The notes under the pieces are model-generated. The model had not been told where the DNA came from. It did not search any database and was given only the letters and a program-made list of their open reading frames with translations. Made by a program: the position numbers and the translations under genes. DNA of 64,000 nt, from contig JALHRJ010000008.1 in NCBI GenBank assembly GCA_022841475.1, positions 1 to 64,000 on the forward strand, written 5' to 3'. Positions 8,936-13,633 of this stretch are shown in pieces. Source of the stretch: Cyclobacteriaceae bacterium (GTDB taxonomy: Bacteria > Bacteroidota > Bacteroidia > Cytophagales > Cyclobacteriaceae). Within the stretch, counting starts at the first letter, position 1; every line of letters starts with the position of its first letter.

Positions 8936-9092
8936 AAAGAAGCTGTCTCAAAGTAATTTTCAATTGTCAGCCTGAGCCTGCCTGCGCGTAGCCACTTCGG
9001 CAAAGACAGGCATGTCGAAGCTATTTTACTTCAATACAAAGGTTTCGACAAGCTCAACCTGACAACTGAGTGGCTTTCGAGGCAGCCTCTTT
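8936..9092. repeat. composite nested palindromic repeat, also leuS terminator
   Basis: Three nested inverted repeats fill the leuS-ABC gap. Outermost arms are AAAGAAGCTGTCTCAAAG (8936-8953) and CTTTCGAGGCAGCCTCTTT (9074-9092). Inside are TTGTCAGCCTGAGC (from 8965) and its partner GCTCAACCTGACAA (to about 9064), with the matching TGTCGAA and TTCGACA next to them. Inserted in the left inner arm, at about 8978-9012, is a third palindrome bounded by TGCCTG and CAGGCA. On the minus strand the outer hairpin follows leuS and ends in a run of eight Ts, so it can terminate leuS. These motifs resemble high-copy intergenic repeats common in Bacteroidota. Confidence 0.7.
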
Positions 9093-9114
9093 AATATTTT
9101 TAATGGATCAGATC

Positions 9115-12100
9115 CTAAAGCACCACGTTCACAATCTTACCAGGCACCACAATCACTTTTTTGGGTGTCTTGCCTTCGGTCCACTTTTGTACGATGTCGG
9201 AAGCGAGCACGGTCTTTTCGATTTCTTCTTTAGGCACATCCAACGCAAATTCCATCTGCGCACGTACTTTACCGTTGATGGAGATGGGATAGCTGAATGA
9301 ACTTTCGATCAGGTATTGCTCCTCGAATTTCGGGAACGATGCATTTAAGATGGTATCCGGATGACCCAGCAACGACCACAATTCTTCTGTAAGATGTGGA
9401 GCAAAAGGGGAGAGGGCAATCACCAGCGGTTCAATGATTTTACGTTTGTTGCATTTCAACGAACTCAATTCATTGGCGCAGATCATAAACTCACTCACGG
9501 AAGTATTGAAGGAAAAGTTCTCAATATCCTGTTCTACTTTCTTCAACGTTTTGTGAAGCACTTTTAATTCCTCGCGAGTAGGTTCTGCCTCACTGACTTT
9601 GAATTTGCCCGTACTGTCGTGGAGCAAATTCCAGAATCTACGTAAGAATTTATACACGCCATCAATGCCGTTGGTGTTCCAGGGTTTCGATTGTTCCAGC
9701 GGCCCGAGAAACATTTCGTACATACGCAGCGTGTCGGCACCATAATCTGTAATGATTTGATCGGGGTTGACTACGTTAAAGTATGACTTGCTCATTTTTT
9801 CGATGGCCGAGCCACAGATGTATTTGCCATCTTCCAAAATGAATTCCGCATTGGCGAAATCAGGTTTCCATTTTTTGAAACCTTCAGTATTTAATTCTAA
9901 TCCATTAACCAAACTGATATCGACATGAAGTTCATCGGTTTCATGCTTGTCTTTAAATCCGGCCGAAACAAATTGATGCGTGCCTCTAATCCGATACACA
10001 AATCTGGAATCACCCGTAATCTTGCCCTGATTAATCAACTTCTTAAACGGCTCATCAAAATTAAGGTAGCCTAAGTCGTGCAGCACTTTTGTCCACAAAC
10101 GTGAGTATAATAAATGGGCAACGGCATGTTCCGAGCCACCTACATAAACATCCACCTGATTCCAGTAGTCGAGTACTTTCTTATCTGCGAAAGCGTGTTC
10201 GTTGTGCGGATCCATGTAACGTAAAAAATACCACGCAGCACCCGCATGCGTAGGCATCGTGTTACTGTCGCGTTTTTGATCAGGCGCAAAATTGATCCAG
10301 TCAGTCAGGTTTGCCAACGGACCTTCACCATTCCCCGAAGGTTTGAAATTATCCGAAGGTGGAAGTTGTAACGGCAATTCACTTTCCTTCATCGCATAGG
10401 GCATACCGTCTTTAAAGACTACGGGAAAGGGTTCGCCCCAATAGCGCTGACGGCTCCAGCCTGCATCGCGCATTTTATAATTCACCTGGCGTTTGCCGAT
10501 GCCCATTTCTTCGAGTTTGGTCGCCACTATATCAATTGCTTTGTGCATCACCATCCCATTCAGGAAATCCGAATTTTCCAGGATGGCATCTTTCGTTGGG
10601 TTAGCTTCTTCACCATTATAATGCGAACCGATGATGTTGGTGATCGGTAGTTTGAAATGTTTGGCAAACTTATGATCGCGCTCATCGCCACACGGCACAC
10701 CCATAATGGCACCGGTTCCATATCCAGCCAATACATACTCACTGATCCAGATTGGAATTTCACGTCCGTTAAATGGATTGATAGCATACGCACCAGTAAA
10801 CGCACCCGTAATCTTTTTTACTTCCGCCATGCGGTCAATCTCTGACCGACTCTCTACGTACTTCAGATATTTTTCTATTTCATCTTTTTGTTCAGGAGTA
10901 GTGATCTTTTTTACAAGATCGTGTTCAGGAGCGATTACCATAAAATCAACACCGAAGATGGTGTCGGGGCGGGTTGTGAAGACGGTGAGGACCTCACCTC
11001 CCGGCCCCTTTTTTTGCGCCTCACCCCGTCCCTCTCCGGGGGAGAGGGTGTTAGAGTCTTTTATGGATAAAGCTTTGTCCAATGATTCTTGGATATCTTT
11101 AAGGACTTTTTTGAGATCACTCTTGACTTGATCGTTGCTAAATCGAATAACAGTAAACCCTTCTGAGTTTAAAAATTCTGTTCTTGCATGATCAAATTCT
11201 TTATTACCTAAATGATAATCACCATCGACTTCAATGACCAATCGCTTATCAAGACACACAAAATCTGCAATGAATACTCCAATGGCATGTTGCCGCCTTA
11301 TTTTATGGCCGAGTTTACTATTTCTAACTTCTTGCCATACGATATCTTCCGATGCTGTTTGATTCTGTCGATTCTCTTTTGAAAACTCTTTCAAATATTT
11401 CCAATATTTTTTTTCCGAAGTCTCAAAGCCCCTCTCCAACGGAGAGGGGTTTGGGGTGAGGCTTGTATTCTCTCCAAGAGAGGGGCTTGCCTCGCCAGAC
11501 GAAGCTTCAGAGTAGGTTGGGGTGAGGTTAAAATTTACCAACGCCCCCACACTCTTCCCAATCCAATTCCGCTGAATCTCTTTCATCGACTCACTGAAGT
11601 CAATCTCATCCAATCCCTTCAGCAAACGCTCGGCATATTCGGTGATGCGCAAACTCCATTGACGCATTTGTTTTTTTACTACCGGAAATCCTCCGCGATA
11701 ACTAACGCCATTAATAACTTCGTCATTGGCCAGCACAGTACCTAACGCTTCGCACCAGTTTACATCGGTATAAGCGAGATAAGCGAGACGATATTCCATT
11801 AAAATCTCCTGCTGTTCTTTTTCAGAGTATGATTTCCAATCGGTTGAACTAAAATTTTGAATTTTGAATTTTGAATTCGGAATAGCGTGATTCACATTCC
11901 CTTCCACCTCAAAAATCTTTATCAGTTCCGAAATGCGTTCGGCCTTTTCTTTTTTACGATTAAACCAGCTATCGAAAATCTGTAAGAAGATCCACTGTGT
12001 CCAGCGATAATATTTTGGGTCGCAGGTTTGAACTTCGCGACTCCAGTCGTAGGAAAAACCTATTTTGCCTAATTGTCTTTTAAAGTTGTTGATGTTATCG

Positions 12101-12426
12101 GCCGTGGAAACAGCGGGATGGATACCATGCTCCAATGCATATTGTTCAGCGGGTAGACCAAACGCATCAAAGCCCATCGGGTGCAACACATTAAAACCTT
12201 TCACACGTTTGAAACGCGCTACAATATCCGAGGCGATATATCCCAGAGGGTGCCCAACGTGTAGTCCTGCCCCGGAAGGATAAGGAAACATATCAAGCAC
12301 GTAATACTTGGGCTTGTCCCGATAGCTATCGGGATTGTTTGAAACTTTATATACCTCCTTTTCAATCCAGGTTTTGCGCCATTTTTCTTCTATTCGCTTG
12401 ATCTCGTCTTTCGTGTATTCGGCCAT
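9115..12426 (-). CDS. leuS: leucyl-tRNA synthetase with inserted DUF559 domain
   Basis: A 1103-residue class Ia leucyl-tRNA synthetase that charges tRNA-Leu in the cytoplasm. HVGH (56-59) and KMSKS (877-881) form the ATP site, and TTRPDT (about 487-492) is the threonine-rich editing motif of the CP1 domain. Without residues about 300-478 it would be 924 residues, normal for the phylum. The extra segment sits between VNFNL and VFTTRPDT and encodes a DUF559 nuclease-like domain flanked by hairpin repeats (see the entry at 10984-11527). A second, shorter oddity is SKFKIQNF near residue 184, encoded by a repeated TTTTGAA run. The frame is intact, and as an essential gene it is presumably functional unless a second leuS exists. 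Confidence 0.93.
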   Translation of the reverse strand: MAEYTKDEIKRIEEKWRKTWIEKEVYKVSNNPDSYRDKPKYYVLDMFPYPSGAGLHVGHPLGYIASDIVARFKRVKGFNVLHPMGFDAFGLPAEQYALEHGIHPAVSTADNINNFKRQLGKIGFSYDWSREVQTCDPKYYRWTQWIFLQIFDSWFNRKKEKAERISELIKIFEVEGNVNHAIPNSKFKIQNFSSTDWKSYSEKEQQEILMEYRLAYLAYTDVNWCEALGTVLANDEVINGVSYRGGFPVVKKQMRQWSLRITEYAERLLKGLDEIDFSESMKEIQRNWIGKSVGALVNFNLTPTYSEASSGEASPSLGENTSLTPNPSPLERGFETSEKKYWKYLKEFSKENRQNQTASEDIVWQEVRNSKLGHKIRRQHAIGVFIADFVCLDKRLVIEVDGDYHLGNKEFDHARTEFLNSEGFTVIRFSNDQVKSDLKKVLKDIQESLDKALSIKDSNTLSPGEGRGEAQKKGPGGEVLTVFTTRPDTIFGVDFMVIAPEHDLVKKITTPEQKDEIEKYLKYVESRSEIDRMAEVKKITGAFTGAYAINPFNGREIPIWISEYVLAGYGTGAIMGVPCGDERDHKFAKHFKLPITNIIGSHYNGEEANPTKDAILENSDFLNGMVMHKAIDIVATKLEEMGIGKRQVNYKMRDAGWSRQRYWGEPFPVVFKDGMPYAMKESELPLQLPPSDNFKPSGNGEGPLANLTDWINFAPDQKRDSNTMPTHAGAAWYFLRYMDPHNEHAFADKKVLDYWNQVDVYVGGSEHAVAHLLYSRLWTKVLHDLGYLNFDEPFKKLINQGKITGDSRFVYRIRGTHQFVSAGFKDKHETDELHVDISLVNGLELNTEGFKKWKPDFANAEFILEDGKYICGSAIEKMSKSYFNVVNPDQIITDYGADTLRMYEMFLGPLEQSKPWNTNGIDGVYKFLRRFWNLLHDSTGKFKVSEAEPTREELKVLHKTLKKVEQDIENFSFNTSVSEFMICANELSSLKCNKRKIIEPLVIALSPFAPHLTEELWSLLGHPDTILNASFPKFEEQYLIESSFSYPISINGKVRAQMEFALDVPKEEIEKTVLASDIVQKWTEGKTPKKVIVVPGKIVNVVL
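10984..11527 (-). mobile_element. DUF559 insertion element inside leuS
   Basis: This segment is absent from ordinary LeuRS. Its ends are inverted: CCTCACCTCC at 10992-11001 and GGTTGGGGTGAGG at 11515-11527. Next to them are hairpins CCCTCTCC/GGAGAGGG (11030-11037 and 11041-11048) and CCCCTCTCC/GGAGAGGGG (11429-11437 and 11441-11449), each joined to a further CCTCACCCC or GGGGTGAGG. GGTGAGG occurs in direct orientation at 10984-10990 and 11521-11527, exactly 537 bases (179 codons) apart, so precise loss restores the frame. The core (about residues 335-455 of LeuS) has ADFVCLDKRLVIEVDGDYH and a following IRFSNDQV, typical of DUF559 proteins with a PD-(D/E)XK-like fold. Confidence 0.85.
11852..11880. 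repeat. short tandem TTTTGAA repeat in leuS
   Basis: On the plus strand the heptad-like unit TTTTGAA is repeated three times in a row, ending GAATTC. In leuS it encodes SKFKIQNF, a stretch not usual for the family at this place. The same low-complexity string is common between genes in Bacteroidota, so it looks like a small in-frame addition from an intergenic repeat, next to position 184 of the protein. Confidence 0.55.
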
Positions 12427-12453
12427 TTTTGAACAGGTTCACAATTTGAACCG

Positions 12454-12461
12454 CAAAAATA
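12454..12461 (-). promoter_or_regulatory. probable leuS promoter, -7 element
   Basis: On the minus strand the sequence TATTTTTG is an exact match to the Bacteroidota -7 element TAnnTTTG, 28 bases before the leuS start codon. No perfect TTTG stands 19-21 bases further up; the closest is a GTGTTTC stretch. The assignment rests on the -7 match and position. Confidence 0.45.
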
Positions 12462-12505
12462 GTGTAAAGAGCTGAAACACCCATCTAGAATTGTGAACCA
12501 ACAAA

Positions 12506-12531
12506 AAAGTCAGGCCGACAGACCTGACTTT
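12506..12531 (-). terminator. intrinsic terminator after the Gfo/Idh gene
   Basis: Arms AAAGTCAGG (12506-12514) and CCTGACTTT (12523-12531) form a nine-base stem with an eight-base loop, 23 bases past the stop codon of the oxidoreductase gene. On the minus strand it runs into TTTTTTG. It separates that gene from leuS. Confidence 0.8.
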
Positions 12532-12553
12532 AAACAAGTGTTTCATTTTTCAA

Positions 12554-13633
12554 TTATCCCAACCATAAGTCCACCGGCTTTTTAACTACCGGAGTAAATG
12601 GTAATTCAATTTTCTTTCCTTGCCCAGCAGATGCATAAGCAGCATAGATTACTTCAAGTACTTTCCGACCTAATTCTCCGGTCACCAAGGGTTCTTTATT
12701 GTTTCGCACACAATCGATAAAGTGCTTCAACTCATGCGGATAACCCTGGTTGAATGCTTCTTCAAAAATCGGGAAACTCCAGCCGGCAGTTGTGTCTGCC
12801 TTCTCCATAGCATATCCAAACCCTTTTTTGCTATAAGCAAGGGCTGCGTTGCCGCGGAATAAATCAGCTTGCATCAAACCTTCAGTACCATACACTTCGC
12901 AATGGTCGTCCATACCTCCGTGTTGGGCCCAACTGTTTTCGGCCACGCCAATGGTGCCATTCTCAAATTCCACTATCACCACCGAGTTATCTTCGCCTTT
13001 GGTTCTTCCTTTGTGCAGCACGGTGTTCATCGAAGCTAACACGCTTTTTACCTTGGCATTATTCAACATCCAGAAAAACCATCCAAAGGCATGACAACCC
13101 ATGTCCATCAGCACACCGCCACCGGCAAGGTTAATATCATAAAACCAGTCGGAGTGTGGACCAGAATGTTTCTCCGCTTGCTTGAGCATGTAGATATCTC
13201 CGATGGCACCTTCTTTCACCAGACTTCTAACCCGCTCATATTTAGGTGCGAAACAAAGTTCTTCAGCATACATCAGTTTTACGCCTTGTTGTTTGCAGAC
13301 CTTTATCATTTCATCTGCTTCTTCGATGGTCACTGCTAGTGGCTTTTCGATGATGATATGCTTTTTTGCCATTGCAGCTTTGATGGTTGCCTGGGCATGT
13401 AAAAAGTTAGGCAGGCAGACATCCACCACTTCGCACCCCGATTCGTTGATAATGGCATCCATTGAATCGTACCATTTTTGAATATGATGTTTTTCGGCAA
13501 AGGCTTTTGCTTTGTTGATGTCGCGACTATACACTGCAACTATTTCGGCTTCCGGTACAAATCGTTCATAACTCTCCACGTGGATGTCGGAGATGAATCC
13601 ACAGCCAAGGATGGCAACTTTTGTTTTACTCAT
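12554..13633 (-). CDS. Gfo/Idh/MocA-family oxidoreductase
   Basis: A 359-residue NAD(P)-dependent sugar or cyclitol dehydrogenase. The N-terminal Rossmann fold begins VAILGCGFISDIHVESY (6-22), and EKPLAVTIEEAD (about 96-107) carries the conserved lysine of the EKP motif. The C-terminal half has GGGVLMDMGCHAFGW near 171-185, where the catalytic-site Asp and His of the family occur. No signal peptide, so cytoplasmic, in contrast to the many Tat-exported members in this phylum. The substrate cannot be deduced: the nearest gene on the same strand is an M28 peptidase 27 bases upstream, which could be cotranscribed but is functionally unrelated. Confidence 0.88.
   Translation of the reverse strand: MSKTKVAILGCGFISDIHVESYERFVPEAEIVAVYSRDINKAKAFAEKHHIQKWYDSMDAIINESGCEVVDVCLPNFLHAQATIKAAMAKKHIIIEKPLAVTIEEADEMIKVCKQQGVKLMYAEELCFAPKYERVRSLVKEGAIGDIYMLKQAEKHSGPHSDWFYDINLAGGGVLMDMGCHAFGWFFWMLNNAKVKSVLASMNTVLHKGRTKGEDNSVVIVEFENGTIGVAENSWAQHGGMDDHCEVYGTEGLMQADLFRGNAALAYSKKGFGYAMEKADTTAGWSFPIFEEAFNQGYPHELKHFIDCVRNNKEPLVTGELGRKVLEVIYAAYASAGQGKKIELPFTPVVKKPVDLWLG

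Follow-up and report, generated by a model that had tools for sequence, protein, structure and literature searches.

A DUF559 nuclease domain between palindromic ends in leucyl-tRNA synthetase: a probable mobile element family of Bacteroidota

The leucyl-tRNA synthetase (LeuRS) gene of a Cyclobacteriaceae bacterium contains an in-frame insert that encodes a DUF559 nuclease domain between palindromic ends. The insert lies in a stretch of 64,000 nucleotides (assembly GCA_022841475.1, contig JALHRJ010000008.1, positions 1 to 64,000), hereafter called the window. With a probability of roughly 0.7, it is interpreted as belonging to a family of mobile elements in Bacteroidota that measure about 0.4-0.55 kb and have inverted palindromic ends and a DUF559 nuclease of the Vsr/PD-(D/E)XK-like type; homing-like or hairpin-directed copying is inferred for them. 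Sequence comparison established the in-frame insertion, the unrelated hosts, the patchiness and the use of shared sites by different nuclease lineages, as well as the paired ends, the solo palindromes of the same type, the purifying selection and the lack of a detectable target-site duplication. The mode of movement is an inference, no movement having been observed, and DNA cleavage by the nuclease is likewise inferred.

An additional domain in the LeuRS reading frame

A first-pass annotation of the window had described a LeuRS about 180 residues too long, in which the extra part encodes a DUF559-type domain and the frame remains unbroken across the insertion. All three points were borne out. 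The open frame of leuS is uninterrupted over its 1103 codons, and the insert accounts for 179 of them, at coordinates within a few bases of the originally proposed 10984-11527 (Table 1). With 931 bits, the protein lies far above the cut-off of 548 set for the NCBIfam leuS_bact model. Pfam recognizes a class I synthetase core, an editing domain that begins at residue 478 and, at residues 344-449, a DUF559 domain (PF04480, E 1.5e-32) that separates the catalytic core from the editing domain. The suggested check for a second leuS was carried out with a LeuRS query against the same genome and revealed none among the four listed of seven matches, which are leuS itself, two further DUF559 copies and one weak synthetase paralogue.

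The assembly comprises 282 contigs and is 94.44% complete with 4.85% contamination, and two of the 80 best named loci, ranked by likeness to the leuS copies, are labelled as non-Bacteroidota metagenome-assembled genomes (Limnohabitans and Paceibacterota), which may be misbinned. These features could speak for an assembly or binning artefact, an explanation that is barely credible given that leuS copies at the same site are present in the one-contig genome G024 and in the isolates Cellulophaga baltica DSM 24729 and Gillisia mitskevichiae DSM 19839.

An AlphaFold model of the whole window LeuRS, computed with 28 LeuRS sequences as input (mean pLDDT 77.6, pTM 0.65), matches solved LeuRS structures. 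It contains the extra domain and two linkers with a pLDDT below 50 (residues 305-336 and 456-477), which are the palindrome-encoded flanks of the insert; further short stretches of low confidence occur elsewhere in the model. The strands on either side of the insert (residues 291-302 and 479-484) are preserved, and the flanks are predicted to be read through as disordered linkers. An intein or a self-splicing intron would commonly look like this, with a nuclease lodged in an essential gene. Pfam detected no intein domain, however, no splicing apparatus was found, and a scan of window positions 9000-12600 for RNA families yielded neither an intron nor any other credible candidate, with a single match at chance level. 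As the insertion is also located in a variable loop with flanks that appear to be read through, hardly any weight remains for this explanation.

Table 1. Position and architecture of the insert in the leuS gene of the window
Feature	Position	Strand	Description	Basis
leuS, host gene	9115..12426	minus	LeuRS of 1103 codons; the in-frame insert covers residues ~301-479	frame, Pfam, NCBIfam
Whole insert (element with doubled ends)	10992..11527	minus	179 codons, 536 bp	comparison with insert-free loci; alignment of filled loci
Outer left end, interrupted	11462..11527	minus	CCTCACCCC arm (11519-11527), 26-base repeat (11489-11514), short CCCCTCTCTTGGAGAG hairpin	sequence, alignment
Inner left end, A-type	11426..11461	minus	CCTCACCCC arm and CCCCTCTCC/GGAGAGGGG hairpin	DNA fold; matches to G024 and G008
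DUF559 nuclease domain	11080..11397	minus		Pfam; conserved E, D, H and R columns; structure model
Inner right end, A-type	11019..11051	minus	CCCTCTCC/GGAGAGGG hairpin and GGGGTGAGG arm	alignment
Outer right end remnant	10992..11008	minus	GGGGCCGGGAGGTGAGG, similar to the right ends of B-type copies in G020 and G017	alignment

Read in gene direction, the insert is composed of the outer left end, the inner left end, the nuclease, the inner right end, which mirrors the inner left one, and the outer right end. The inner left end starts with CCTCACCCC, followed by a hairpin in which CCCCTCTCC and GGAGAGGGG enclose a loop. Two matches to the palindrome CCTCACCCC..CCCTCTCC were found in the window, compared to none in each of 100 dinucleotide shuffles. 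As single-stranded DNA, the inner left end folds with -11.7 kcal/mol (z -3.8); the fold of the inner right end is unexceptional when taken alone (z -0.8). Both inner ends align with those of the A-type copies of G024 and G008, while the outer right end is of B-type appearance. The window copy thus appears to be an A element nested inside the ends of a B element, an arrangement that would be expected if the sister lineage (G020) kept B. The insertion boundaries are not exact, as far as alignments can define them, because the host loops are variable.

Several repeats were noted in and around these structures. The 26-base repeat nested in the outer left end is read as SEASSGEA; it also adjoins the right end in leuS of G011 (L008/L039) and occurs at no other place among 387 loci. 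A tandem repeat of seven bases, (AAAATTC)n, is present in leuS at window positions 11853-11880, where it is read in frame as NSKFKIQ, and in six genomes (G013, G009, G018, G007, G026 and G043) the same repeat occupies the exact loop that holds the DUF559 element in other genomes. In leuS of G112 (L140), the right end is present in three in-frame tandem copies (QNSLTSGEGWGGAK x3), so that ends can also expand.

Patchy presence and turnover

As had been proposed, the segment was compared with the LeuRS of related genomes, and relatives that lack it were identified. The distance from the WIG(K/R)S motif to the end of the TTRPDT-type motif is 72-117 nt without the insert and 495-615 nt in filled loci, with 591 nt in the window and 126 nt at one locus that contains palindromes only. 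The LeuRS query gave matches in all 39 genomes; LeuRS itself was found in 37 and the insert in only some of them. The two others (G004 and G022, 77-78% complete) match only via DUF559 copies. On a LeuRS tree of 42 rows, from which poorly filled columns and hence the insert were left out, the presence or absence of the element changes at least 12 times. The filled G024 is the sister of the empty G013 (support 98, branch lengths 0.024 and 0.027), and the window's own genome, with an insert of lineage A, is the sister of G020, which has lineage B (support 98). The two nuclease lineages are separate clades (support 95 and 98, A including two copies at another leuS site) and both make use of the same leuS site.

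Similar patterns were found in other genes. In another genus, uvrA is filled in 2 of 13 genomes, and the UvrA of G357, which is devoid of the element, is 97-99% identical to that of a carrier over its two parts. A third genus has filled metH loci in 7 of 10 genomes. A different AT-rich, repeat-like stretch occupies the position in uvrA of G357 and G414 at which G383 and G412 have the element.

Judged by these comparisons, the window insert behaves like a mobile element and not like a fixed domain. The pattern that had been named as a refutation, a domain present in every orthologue at the same site and without repeats, was not seen in the order; leuS of the Flavobacteriaceae comes closer to it. 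The idea that an essential host protects the element from deletion found no support, since the site is often gained, lost or replaced, and since G021 retains both palindromes without the nuclease at this leuS site (a complete A-type element resides at another leuS site of this genome). The dS values between leuS copies are mostly saturated, for insert and host alike, and a recent transfer within a genus is therefore not shown for leuS. The dN values of insert and host rise together, which would also fit vertical descent with losses and replacements; such descent may explain part of the leuS pattern.

The nuclease domain

The DUF559 domain scores 112 bits against a family cut-off of 20.6 (PF04480). 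Its E-x-D-G-x-x-H motif is kept in 176 of 177 copies, or in 96 of 97 when the set retrieved by a pattern that holds part of the motif is excluded. The E, D, H and R columns are conserved in DUF559 alignments, and the residues of the motif constitute the putative active site. With dN/dS ratios of 0.01-0.17 wherever dS is finite, the nuclease is, by this estimate, under purifying selection. A structure model of the domain (mean pLDDT 87.4) was compared with known structures by Foldseek. It matches the DUF559-like protein 3hrl (E 2.2e-7) and the catalytic domain of the homing endonuclease I-Bth0305I (E 1.4e-4, probability 1.00, TM 0.73-0.74 by target), and only weakly Vsr (E 0.4-0.6). A profile search returned 3hrl with E 6.1e-31 and I-Bth0305I with E 6.9e-6.

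An in-frame ATG within 45 codons upstream of the domain is present in 49 of 107 embedded copies compared to 34 of 36 free copies (34 of the 177 copies fall in neither class), and the translation of the window insert is devoid of methionine codons. For this reason, many embedded copies can presumably be made only within the host protein if neither GTG nor TTG is used as start codon; some ATG, GTG or TTG is located upstream in 89 of the 107.

Other origins of the domain were considered and rejected. Relatives on viral contigs do not exceed 48% identity across the whole domain and phage records gave no DNA match, which does not support a phage origin. Forty plasmid records match, all below 60% identity; the ten named genera include no Bacteroidota, and eight more are unnamed. 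A role as a defence system was discarded because only a weak match to AbiO (E 0.0014) was obtained; matches to PHROGs were weak and mostly of unknown function.

Hosts and taxonomic spread

DUF559 was detected in 223 of 390 genomes in a sample of the order and in 170 of 296 genomes in a sample of the phylum. Among the best 150 hits of each search, which are the top-scoring rows and no random sample, 65 (order) and 43 (phylum) reside in frames of at least 300 codons. From the 65 order loci, 60 were fetched, G000 and G020 were already included and G044, G116 and G326 were not included. Frames of this length also harbour 63 of the best 80 named loci mentioned above, whose labels include Cyclobacteriaceae, Hymenobacter, Rufibacter, Flavobacteriaceae genera, Prevotellaceae and Chitinophagaceae and which comprise isolates.

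A search of Bacteroidota for DUF559 with flanking hairpins in other genes, likewise proposed at the outset, thus revealed many unrelated hosts. Pfam identified elements inside or at the end of four class I tRNA synthetases, specific for Leu, Ile, Val and Met (leuS, ileS, valS and metG), and of enzymes acting on DNA, including UvrA, RecG, RecQ, a UvrD-like helicase and DNA methylases. Metabolic hosts include B12-dependent methionine synthase (metH), a GATase_5 protein (PurQ-like), CoA transferase, chorismate synthase, acetyl-CoA synthetase (acs), aconitase, methylmalonyl-CoA mutase and a GH31 enzyme, and an ABC-F-like protein is a further host. In LeuRS and ValRS, the copies directly precede the TTRPDT/TTRPET motif of the editing domain. 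No host domain was found by Pfam in the long-frame loci L098, L112 and L120.

On the nuclease tree, 28 host-site changes were counted among 97 copies, compared to a mean of 66 in shuffles. By this measure the host sites are clustered, yet there were many moves from host to host. The tree rests on a short alignment, and 40 of its 94 inner branches lack resolution. One genome, G109, contains sister copies in leuS and metH, with a support of only 86.

Two further observations concern individual loci. In G200 (L092), the methionine synthase frame of metH is lost after the right palindrome, and the gene seems to be split by the element. DUF559 copies also recur near a gene pair for N-formylglutamate amidohydrolase and amidohydrolase in several genomes of the family (L003 in G000, L014, L015, L090 and L139).

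The range of hosts bears on the possibility of a functional domain fusion, in which the nuclease would be useful to LeuRS or other hosts and would be kept for their benefit. Strong purifying selection on the nuclease and the occurrence of several Flavobacteriaceae genera with the same leuS site and weak ends are compatible with such a role. It is nevertheless improbable in view of hosts as unrelated as synthetases and aconitase, the patchiness among close relatives and the different nuclease lineages at one site.

Paired ends and solo palindromes

The ends of one element are inverted copies of each other. Over 97 elements, the left and right ends of the same element matched with a mean score of 48.7, compared to 25.0 against the ends of other elements; the own partner was best or tied in 30 cases and among the top three in 55. 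A second set, which consisted of 76 of the 80 named loci after four with short flanks were dropped, gave 42.1 for the own partner and 23.1 for others, with 25 partners best or tied and 34 among the top three. Weak paired ends (score 17-24) were found in leuS of Cellulophaga, Gillisia, Maribacter, Marixanthotalea and Hyunsoonleella and also in recG copies. Such weak-ended copies, mainly from Flavobacteriaceae, may be old fixed domains.

The palindromes are also widespread on their own. In the window's genome, the pattern occurs 22 times, 3 times at DUF559 copies and 19 times alone, and a reversed-pattern control gave no match. Across the order, it was found in 155 of 390 genomes, the richest of which has 182 copies, and the reversed pattern yielded 4 matches in total. 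Palindromes and DUF559 are both present in 133 genomes, DUF559 only in 89, palindromes only in 21 and neither in 146, which corresponds to an odds ratio of about 10; this count excludes G000 and is uncorrected for relatedness. Palindromes without DUF559 are mostly located outside long frames, as inferred from the own genome and 20 hand-picked stretches. The 'NPSPLERG'-like flanks on which the first-pass annotation had remarked belong to the palindrome family found around elements and alone. With relatives that lack the segment and elements of the same kind in frame in other genes, its proposal of an element that spreads in frame in Bacteroidota gains support, the movement being inferred from comparison.

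Palindromes without a nuclease were also observed in frame at one loop of what we take to be a gcvP-like gene in three members of the genus: the window's genome (L164/L388), G011 (L391) and G196 (L425), in the last of which they form a left-right pair. This comparison displayed 7 of 17 loci.

A target-site duplication was not detected. Direct repeats of at least 4 bases flank 2 of 89 elements, compared to 3.3% expected from mismatched pairs; the test covered 89 of the 177 elements, with approximate boundaries. By this criterion, the element does not match a transposon with DDE-type chemistry.

It is conceivable that mobility belongs to the palindromes and depends on a different enzyme, for example a Y1 transposase of the RAYT-like type, with DUF559 as a passenger or in some other job. 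The layout is like that of REPtrons, Y1_Tnp is encoded in all 13 palindrome-rich genomes checked, and in the 21 genomes without DUF559 palindromes reach up to 55 copies (G349). Y1_Tnp was, however, also detected in 11 of 13 genomes that had been selected for the absence of DUF559, and its numbers are not larger in the palindrome-rich ones. Moreover, DUF559 and palindromes co-occur, and the protein between the paired ends is a nuclease under purifying selection and not a Y1 protein; within the insert, Pfam recognized only DUF559 and the related, sub-threshold MTES_1575, and no Y1 HUH transposase. That a Y1 transposase is the actual mover is thus neither supported nor excluded, and the idea as a whole is considered unlikely.

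Relation to known systems

Three known systems share features with the element. Rickettsia palindromic elements (RPEs) are palindromic repeats of about 150 bp that are inserted in frame in unrelated protein genes and translated with the host; in-frame selfish palindromes have been known since this work, and an own enzyme is not mentioned in the accessible portions of these papers (PMC10969869, PMC3733652). In-frame palindromes in protein genes are common to both, and the palindrome-only loci in the gcvP-like gene and in leuS of G021 look RPE-like. The Bacteroidota element differs in its size of 536 bp and its nuclease domain, as far as the available descriptions of RPEs allow and without a comparison of RPE sequences.

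In REPtrons (RAYT), an enzyme gene is placed between inverted palindromes, many solo palindromes accompany it, and REPs inside genes have been reported (PMC3733652, available in part). The same layout of an enzyme between inverted palindromes is found here, together with solo palindromes. Unlike in the REPtrons described there, DUF559 replaces the Y1 HUH transposase and the embedded copies form part of the host proteins as in-frame domains.

EDxHD homing endonucleases such as I-Bth0305I resemble the present nuclease in their catalytic fold and in their occurrence at recurrent sites. On the basis of a partly accessible account (PMC3943268), they differ from the Bacteroidota element, which lacks an intron or intein, has inverted palindromic ends and uses many host sites, and whose cleavage activity is inferred. 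Free-standing DUF559 proteins (3hrl and VsrA of Caulobacter) belong to the same domain family. VsrA has been reported to underlie the SOS response in a methyltransferase mutant (PMC12907096), which is in line with DNA damage. These proteins are encoded by separate genes, whereas the Bacteroidota domain is carried between palindromes and often inside other genes.

By analogy, and within the limits of the partly available sources, the nearest phenomenon is the in-frame palindromes of Rickettsia, the nearest layout that of REPtrons and the nearest mobility enzyme the EDxHD homing endonucleases. The element can be likened to an RPE with an enzyme and is, on this analogy, not a member of the RPEs, REPtrons or homing endonucleases. 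A search of open-licence PMC titles and abstracts gave no description of DUF559 in LeuRS or of such an element, although absence in print is not proven by this.

A proposed mode of spread

In the favoured interpretation, the nuclease would cut DNA at target sequences or at hairpins formed by palindromes already in place, and the element would then be copied in during repair by a homing-like or hairpin-directed process. Copies in frame in permissive loops or at protein ends would survive, since such a host remains functional and produces the nuclease as one of its domains. Intergenic copies would mostly rely on their own ATG. Loss of the middle would leave a palindrome-only scar of the RPE type, and copying into the palindromes of an existing element could explain the nesting, the recurrent sites and the missing duplications. 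The chances are about even that this holds in its widest form, with autonomous, phylum-wide elements that live as unspliced domains in essential enzymes, keep the host frame open through their palindromic ends, obtain their Vsr/EDxHD-like nuclease from the start codon of the host, home into loops or older copies and seed solo palindromes.

Implications

The family pairs in-frame palindromes with a conserved nuclease in one element, in common and partly cultivated bacteria. Since palindromes and nuclease are part of the same element, the movement of in-frame palindromes can be addressed by direct tests. Some Bacteroidota sequences of LeuRS, IleRS, MetH, UvrA, RecG and PurQ-type proteins come with an extra nuclease domain, and this is relevant to their annotation, to structural work and to the study of protein evolution. 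If the wider interpretation is true, the phylum-wide class would stand beside the RPE-type in-frame palindromes as their autonomous counterpart equipped with an enzyme.
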